Assembly: GCA_018830405.1 (NCBI GenBank)
Contig: JAHJSF010000007.1
Location: forward strand, 1-5,304
Reading direction: 5' to 3'
DNA: 5,304 nt
Origin: Nitrospinota bacterium
GTDB taxonomy: Bacteria > Nitrospinota > Nitrospinia > UBA9942 > JAHJSF01
Below, in pieces: positions 1,567-5,304 of the stretch (position 1 is the stretch's first letter; each line of letters begins with the position of its first letter). The notes under the pieces were generated by a model. The model ran no database searches. It saw only the letters and a program-made list of their open reading frames with translations, and had not been told where the DNA came from. A program made the position numbers and the translations under genes.

Positions 1567-2814
1567 TTATATCCTTAATTCTGAAGCAATGTGCTGAAGG
1601 ATACTTGTCACCTTCATCTTGGCAAGACCTATGGACGCGTCGCCTTTCAGAATGAGAACAAGGTTGACATGAGCCTTACCGGGCTGCGTTTTAAAGTGAT
1701 CAGTGCCTTCATTGAAACACTCAACTATAATATGCGCCTGCTCTGTCTCTACATGCACAAAGTCTCCCATCCCCAGGCCCATTTCCGTTGATACCTTTTT
1801 GGCGTTCATAAGAATGTTGTTGGCCATGACCCCTGTCTTCTTCAAATTATGCGTGCTTCCCTGTGCTTCTAACACCGCAATGGATTCTCCTGCCGGGGTG
1901 TATATGGCAACCCCGTCAAAACCATCAATTGAAGCAAATTCTTTTAACTTGTCCTGAATAGCCATGATGTTTATCTCCTTTTTGTTTAGATTTATATTAC
2001 CAACCTCAAAAAATAAACCTTCTGCATCACCCTCTTTCTTTACTGTTGAATTATCATCTCCCCTCCTTTCATTGTCCGGATTTACAAGTTTATTGGCGAC
2101 CTCGCCTATTACATCTTCGATTGTGGCTTCAGCAAGTACCATTTTATTTTCATCCTTCATCCTGGAACTCTCCAGTAAAATGTGGCTCAGGGTTGATTTT
2201 ATGCGTTTGCTCCTTTTTTTGTAGACATCAAACGTTATCTTTGCGTCATTCCAACCTATAATTTTGTAGGCGGCTTCTTCCCCTTTCAGCGGACCGGTTT
2301 CAGCATCCTGCATTTCACCCTTCACAAAATAAAGAGTACCGGTCATTCCCTGCGCCCTGATGTTCAGCGCGCATGTTTTTTCCTCTATCTCCATAAATTG
2401 AAGGAATGACGGCAGGGCTATACCGCTTATATGCCCCTTTGATGCTGCATCAAGCGCCGCAGTGATTTTTTCCCCCAACTCCTCAAAATCTACGGGTTGT
2501 TCTATATATTGGACAGCGCCGAGCTTGAGAATCCTATCTTCAATGGCAGGCGTTCCAAAAGCGGTCATTACAATTACCGGTATCTTGGGATAGTTAGTGA
2601 CGACAAAGGCGAGCAATTCAAAACCGTCCATTACCGGCATCTTGAGGTCGGTAACAACCAGGTCAACATCGATCATTTGTATTGTCTCTACTGCCACCTT
2701 GCCGTTTTCAGCTAAAATCACTTCATATCCTGCGGGCCTAAGCATGGCCTCAAGAAGTTTCAGATTTTTAGGTTCGTCATCAACACAGAGAATTTTTAGT
2801 TTTACATTAGCCAT
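1567..2814 (-). CDS. Response regulator: receiver, PATAN (DUF4388) and Roadblock-like domains (415 aa)
   Basis: Three modules are visible. Residues 5-122 are a REC receiver with acidic pocket D12-D13, phosphoacceptor D56 (VVTDLKMPVMDG), switch T84 and Y103. The usual Lys before Pro is Gln106 (IEQPVD), so signalling may be altered. Residues about 129-225 resemble PATAN/DUF4388: GIALPSFLQFMEIEEKT, a GTLYFVKGEMQDAETG hairpin, GEEAAYKIIGW and ITFDVY. After a helical stretch and a polar linker (about 245-283), residues 284-415 look like a Roadblock/LC7 module (GFDGVAIYTPAGES and a C-terminal NLVLILKGDASIGLAKMK strand-helix). There is no DNA-binding domain, so output is probably protein-protein. 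The gene starts 9 bases after the upstream receiver gene, with GAGGG overlapping that gene's stop, so the two are cotranscribed. An in-frame internal start at Met284 has its own SD. REC is certain; PATAN is likely; Roadblock is a recognition call by pattern. Confidence 0.92.
   Translation of the reverse strand: MANVKLKILCVDDEPKNLKLLEAMLRPAGYEVILAENGKVAVETIQMIDVDLVVTDLKMPVMDGFELLAFVVTNYPKIPVIVMTAFGTPAIEDRILKLGAVQYIEQPVDFEELGEKITAALDAASKGHISGIALPSFLQFMEIEEKTCALNIRAQGMTGTLYFVKGEMQDAETGPLKGEEAAYKIIGWNDAKITFDVYKKRSKRIKSTLSHILLESSRMKDENKMVLAEATIEDVIGEVANKLVNPDNERRGDDNSTVKKEGDAEGLFFEVGNINLNKKEINIMAIQDKLKEFASIDGFDGVAIYTPAGESIAVLEAQGSTHNLKKTGVMANNILMNAKKVSTEMGLGMGDFVHVETEQAHIIVECFNEGTDHFKTQPGKAHVNLVLILKGDASIGLAKMKVTSILQHIASELRI
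1963..1980 (-). promoter_or_regulatory. internal SD and ATG inside the response-regulator gene
   Basis: On the minus strand AAGGAG (1980-1975), within a longer A-rich AAAAAGGAG, lies 9 bases before an in-frame ATG (1965-1963) that encodes Met284. This is a stronger SD than the one at the gene's own start. It falls exactly at the junction between a polar linker and the Roadblock-like module, whose first residues MAIQDKLKEF read like a natural N-terminus. Initiation here would give a free 132-aa Roadblock-like protein. Confidence 0.6.
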
Positions 2815-5266: not shown

Positions 5267-5284
5267 AATTGAGCCGCCATTTTC

Positions 5285-5304
5285 GGGGGGGGGAGGGGGG
5301 GGGA
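5285..5304. other. G9-A-G9-A low-complexity end of the window
   Basis: The last 20 bases are two G9-A units directly upstream of the kinase gene. This is either a sequencing or assembly artefact at a contig end or a true homopolymer tract. It hides the operon's promoter and anything further upstream. Confidence 0.7.

Follow-up and report, generated by a model that had tools for sequence, protein, structure and literature searches.

Nested in-frame products, of which CheA-S is one, are familiar among bacteria and arise as short forms from an internal start within a signalling gene. In type III secretion, an in-frame internal start in SctQ (YscQ) gives a free C-terminal domain, SctQ-C, that binds the full-length protein, and in Yersinia function was lost when the internal Met was replaced (PMC4295842). 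From an internal start, HrcQ likewise gives a free C-terminal product that binds its long form (PMC8553256). Roadblock proteins often regulate small GTPases as parts of heteromeric complexes (PMC9481161), and cyanobacterial PATAN regulators were linked to type IV pili (PMC7690835). The gene described here resembles SctQ and HrcQ in having an in-frame internal start within a longer gene and a predicted free C-terminal domain. Unlike SctQ and HrcQ, it belongs to an unrelated family with a Roadblock domain at the C-terminus and a response regulator as the long form, and both the short product and its complex are predictions. It differs from the CheA-S gene in encoding a response regulator, the latter being a histidine kinase gene. 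It shares the receiver plus PATAN/DUF4388 arrangement of the PATAN regulators PixE, PixG, LsiR and PatA, but adds a Roadblock domain with a putative start of its own.

The window, which denotes the whole analysed stretch of 5,304 nucleotides, comes from a Nitrospinota draft assembly of 1.42 Mb in 185 contigs, 87% complete. Three genes lie in line on its minus strand, in the order histidine kinase (5266-3377), receiver (3189-2824) and 415-aa gene (2814-1567). By ORF and Pfam analysis, the kinase has 629 aa with HAMP, HisKA and HATPase_c domains, and the receiver is a single-domain protein of 121 aa whose gene ends 9 nt before the 415-aa gene. The latter encodes a receiver with its phosphoacceptor Asp present (REC, residues 8-117, 2464-2793; PF00072, E 1.5e-25, 89.9 bits versus a cut-off of 30.2), a DUF4388 or PATAN domain (residues 126-224, 2143-2439; PF14332, E 6.6e-13, 49.2 versus 25 bits), a linker (residues 225-283, 1966-2142) and a Roadblock module of 132 aa (1567-1965, codons plus stop). 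The module, assigned from AlphaFold2, Foldseek and the stand-alone homologue of G143, is the proposed free product. According to the alignment and the full-length model, the linker is little conserved except for the SD-encoding residues, and most of it is at pLDDT about 21-26. On the plus strand of the window, at 687-1084, genes for a HicB-like antitoxin (weak UPF0150/DUF1902 match) and a HicA toxin (PF07927, E 7e-12) overlap at their ends, and the contig ends in a stretch of G (5283-5304), probably an assembly artefact. Neither an MglA-like GTPase gene nor pilus genes were found in the window.

The initial annotation had placed an in-frame ATG (Met284) with a Shine-Dalgarno (SD) sequence upstream inside the response-regulator gene, which was confirmed by direct reading and by duplex energy. 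The minus strand around the site reads AAC AAA AAG GAG ATA AAC ATC ATG GCT ATT CAG. The SD sequence AAAAAGGAG occupies 1975-1983 (codons AAA AAG GAG) and the ATG, Met284 of 415 and in frame, occupies 1963-1965, giving from 1983 down to 1963 the layout AAAAAGGAG-ATAAACATC-ATG with a spacer of 9 nt. The SD:anti-SD duplex amounts to -8.7 kcal/mol at the internal site, -6.3 at the annotated start of the gene and -4.8, -7.1 and -7.4 at the neighbouring genes, so that the internal site pairs with the anti-SD more strongly than the 415-aa gene's own start. The site was also said to lie at the boundary between the linker and the Roadblock-like part, and it does: PATAN ends at residue 224, and a long linker leads to the first helix of the module, whose start at 283 was the sole use made of a poor full-length structure model (pLDDT 47). 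Chance resemblance of the internal site was ruled out by the rarity of the motif in 65 related genes, in which an in-frame ATG or GTG with AGGAG or GGAGG upstream and a duplex energy of -8.5 kcal/mol or lower occurs at 14 of 26,510 codons, and the motif precedes 12 of 741 other in-frame ATGs. An assembly artefact was ruled out as well, since many independent genomes repeat the layout.

Because the module gives by sequence alone a weak match to Pfam Robl_LC7 (PF03259; E 0.027, 14.6 bits, under the curated cut-off of 23), its description as Roadblock-like required a check of the fold. The AlphaFold2 model, based on a two-row alignment and with a mean pLDDT of 64, has the Roadblock order H-EE-H-EEE-H, the first element being helix 3-11 of the free protein. 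Foldseek returned 99 matches at E<=0.001, and the 50 listed are Roadblock, MglB/MglC, LAMTOR/Ragulator or dynein-arm chains, with Asgard Roadblock, MglB and LAMTOR/Ragulator chains as the top PDB matches. The model and its matches agree with the earlier description and indicate a Roadblock fold, and the module is a diverged branch of the Roadblock/LC7 domain. It resembles MglB/MglC and other bacterial Roadblock proteins in fold and in the size of the free module, whereas it differs from MglB/MglC in its weak sequence match and in being encoded inside a response-regulator gene.

The window's genome holds two further genes of the receiver-PATAN-Roadblock layout, C77 and C15. C77 (L002, 417 aa) combines a degenerate receiver with a module 82% identical to that of the window, and AAAGGAGGTAAACATC-ATG is retained. 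Outside this genome, the module was not found among the 77 genomes searched of the window's own phylum, and searches of plasmid, viral and solved-structure sequences gave nothing useful. A MAG labelled Deltaproteobacteria, L005, has the same gene; its module identity is 62% and its site reads GGAAAGGAGATCAATACT-ATG. L005 is absent from the 77-genome set of the window's phylum and present in the set of its own class, which alone comprises 389 genomes, and by these sets is of another phylum than the window. A four-sequence module profile run on these 389 genomes yielded 15 more fused genes with a window-type module, so that the comparison set consists of 18 genes (the window, C77, L005 and the 15 profile matches) from two phyla, with module identities to the window of 35-82%. 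AGGAG and ATG stand at the module boundary in 17 of the 18, these and all other counts over the set coming from related and hence not independent sequences; in the 17 genes the ATG encodes the first residue of the module, and GGAG ends 5-9 nt ahead of it. The site-bearing genes make up nine of the ten clusters below 75% module identity. The lone exception, L129, forms the tenth cluster and has no recognisable PATAN and neither ATG nor SD. In most of the loci L117, L118, L120-L128 and L131, the next gene after the nested one encodes a protein whose start (DLHVHTRRYSACAE) is presumably PHP-phosphoesterase-like.

The SD sequence is read in two codon phases, as AAG GAG in four genes and as A-GGA-G (AAA GGA G or ACA GGA G) in 13, which indicates conservation of the nucleotides rather than of the peptide. 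Upstream of it there is no shared residue, and the rest of the linker is unconserved. Over 810 codons, the 18 linkers contain no in-frame stop, whereas the other two frames have 36 and 69, which suggests that the full-length product is kept too; together with the retained SD and ATG, the open frame speaks for retention of the long frame alongside the internal start. In 15 of the 17 genes Ala or Ser comes after the internal Met, and both are common second residues at true N-termini. In 15 of the 17, moreover, the internal site ranks among the least structured 11% of windows in its own gene, while the RNA around two sites (L117, L124) is fairly structured; a 91-nt stretch at the site is less structured than its own shuffles in the window (z +1.3), the paralogue (+1.4) and L005 (+1.8). 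Taken as sequence evidence, these features make conserved internal initiation very likely, in which a nested gene yields the full-length protein and a predicted free Roadblock partner. A counterpoint to the nested start is that AAG/GAG and AAA/GGA codons are frequent in linkers rich in Lys, Glu and Gly.

The initial annotation had left the choice between two products and a recent fusion in which the old ribosome site survives. It had proposed comparing homologues for separate genes versus fusion, and had named loss of the SD among relatives sharing the fusion as a refuting result. In this comparison nearly all fused genes with the window-type module keep the site, and related genes lacking it usually precede a separate free gene. 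Since 17 of 18 genes keep the SD, in two phases and amid an otherwise unconserved linker, dual products, with the short protein predicted, are favoured over a recent relic. It is accordingly improbable that loss of a stop joined a receiver-PATAN gene to a Roadblock gene downstream and that the old ribosome site merely persists, functionless, in linker codons. A fusion origin at some point is likely, and a free Roadblock gene is kept right behind the fused gene in some lineages; in G132 and G343 (L052, L057) the next gene and the fused module are alike, which may reflect a fairly fresh fusion. A dead site, however, would be expected to have decayed in most lineages, yet this one survives at 35-62% module identity with diverged wobble positions, the window and L005 using the identical codon at only 51% of conserved residues, and neither the lack of common sequence in the remaining linker nor the two codon phases suits a relic. 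Very unlikely is a role of the motif in slowing elongating ribosomes for co-translational folding, rather than in initiation: its place at a domain border would fit, but a pause requires no ATG, whereas the Met is invariant in the 17 genes and mostly followed by Ala or Ser, and the SD-to-ATG spacing suits initiation. Selection of the linker peptide as protein, for example Lys-Glu/Gly beside Met as a helix cap with the SD likeness as by-product, is hardly credible despite a Lys at -4 in eight of nine cluster representatives, since the peptides vary (KEINI, KEDGV, KGDDK, KGVDT, KGGKP, KERT) under constant AGGAG nucleotides, and L129 and gene A of G143 have the module region without Met or SD.

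Fused relatives without the site usually have a separate free Roadblock gene right after them. In G143, a stand-alone module gene lies within 60 nt behind a fused receiver-PATAN-Roadblock gene that lacks an internal start. The stand-alone product is 51% identical to the window's module, and its gene has its own start, AAGGAG-AAAACC-ATG. A sample of 395 genomes was searched with a six-member PATAN profile, a plain PF14332 search being too broad, and about 25 fused genes without internal site were found directly preceding a free Roadblock-like gene. Over all genes, 25 of the 34 that lack the site have an adjacent free Roadblock gene, versus 2 of the 23 that carry the site (Fisher p 1.7e-6; p 0.012 in the first sample alone), where the p-values disregard relatedness and diverse tails were put in one Roadblock set by sequence clustering, partly by eye. 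Both an internal site and an adjacent free gene are present in L052 and L057, and neither in nine genes (L064, L079, L065, L067, L089, L102, L104, L107, L129), so the substitution of site and free gene is a tendency and not a rule. Three other PATAN regulators (L096, L099, L056) have a tail that appears all-helical, unlike Roadblock.

Putative internal starts also occur with other Roadblock modules. In C15 (L008, 383 aa) the Roadblock-like module is a different one (about 25% identity), and AAAAAAGGAGGTAAACCA-ATG stands at the boundary; an internal SD and ATG with a different module are likewise found in G179, G132, G343, G333 and a second gene of G772. C77 joins a C15-like front (72% identity, the modules being 24% identical) to a window-like module (82%, with 33% in front), and these mosaic identities indicate that a module was exchanged at the start site or close to it. 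The two genes (L002 646-1899, L008 1024-2175) are paralogous pseudo-receiver genes with a common front half and different Roadblock modules. In both receivers the phosphoacceptor Asp is replaced by Asn (IANLEMP in C77, ITNMEMP in C15), and these copies would therefore be constitutive or otherwise regulated. Ahead of its window-type site, the C77 linker contains ACGAAAGGAGGGCAAGCAAAG (L002 about 1421-1445), a possible remnant of a C15-type SD whose ATG turned into AAG. The REC-PATAN tree is poorly resolved, with nine parsimony changes of the SD label over 56 genes, and for this reason no number of gains or losses of the site is claimed. The wider proposition is evenly balanced, namely that this regulator family uses pairs of tethered and free Roadblock domains, the free one coming from a next-door gene or a conserved internal start, and that SD, ATG and module are swapped as a cassette between regulators.

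For the window gene, a working scheme of conserved internal initiation may be outlined. Ribosomes starting at 2814 would produce the 415-aa response regulator, in which Roadblock is tethered to the receiver and PATAN, while ribosomes loading on AAAAAGGAG in the linker of the same mRNA would start at Met284 and produce the free 132-aa Roadblock protein, internal initiation being suggested by the sequence and by analogy. Roadblock domains dimerise, and the free module may thus pair with the tethered copy, a pairing suggested in the initial annotation and indirectly supported by the free Roadblock genes that commonly lie behind related fused genes. Once the receiver is phosphorylated, with the upstream-encoded kinase as the probable donor, the complex of tethered and free copies might change what it binds. 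By analogy, the precedents of SctQ, Roadblock heteromers and PATAN regulators lead one to expect such a tethered/free pair, with partner binding set by receiver phosphorylation.

A full-text literature search found no papers mentioning both DUF4388 and Roadblock, so this arrangement seems undescribed in the papers searched. Annotation of the gene as a single ORF would miss a predicted second protein; the evidence points to two proteins, in many lineages. The finding bears on how the Roadblock domain acts as a phosphorelay output, for which the nested gene and the same pair encoded as two genes offer a natural comparison.
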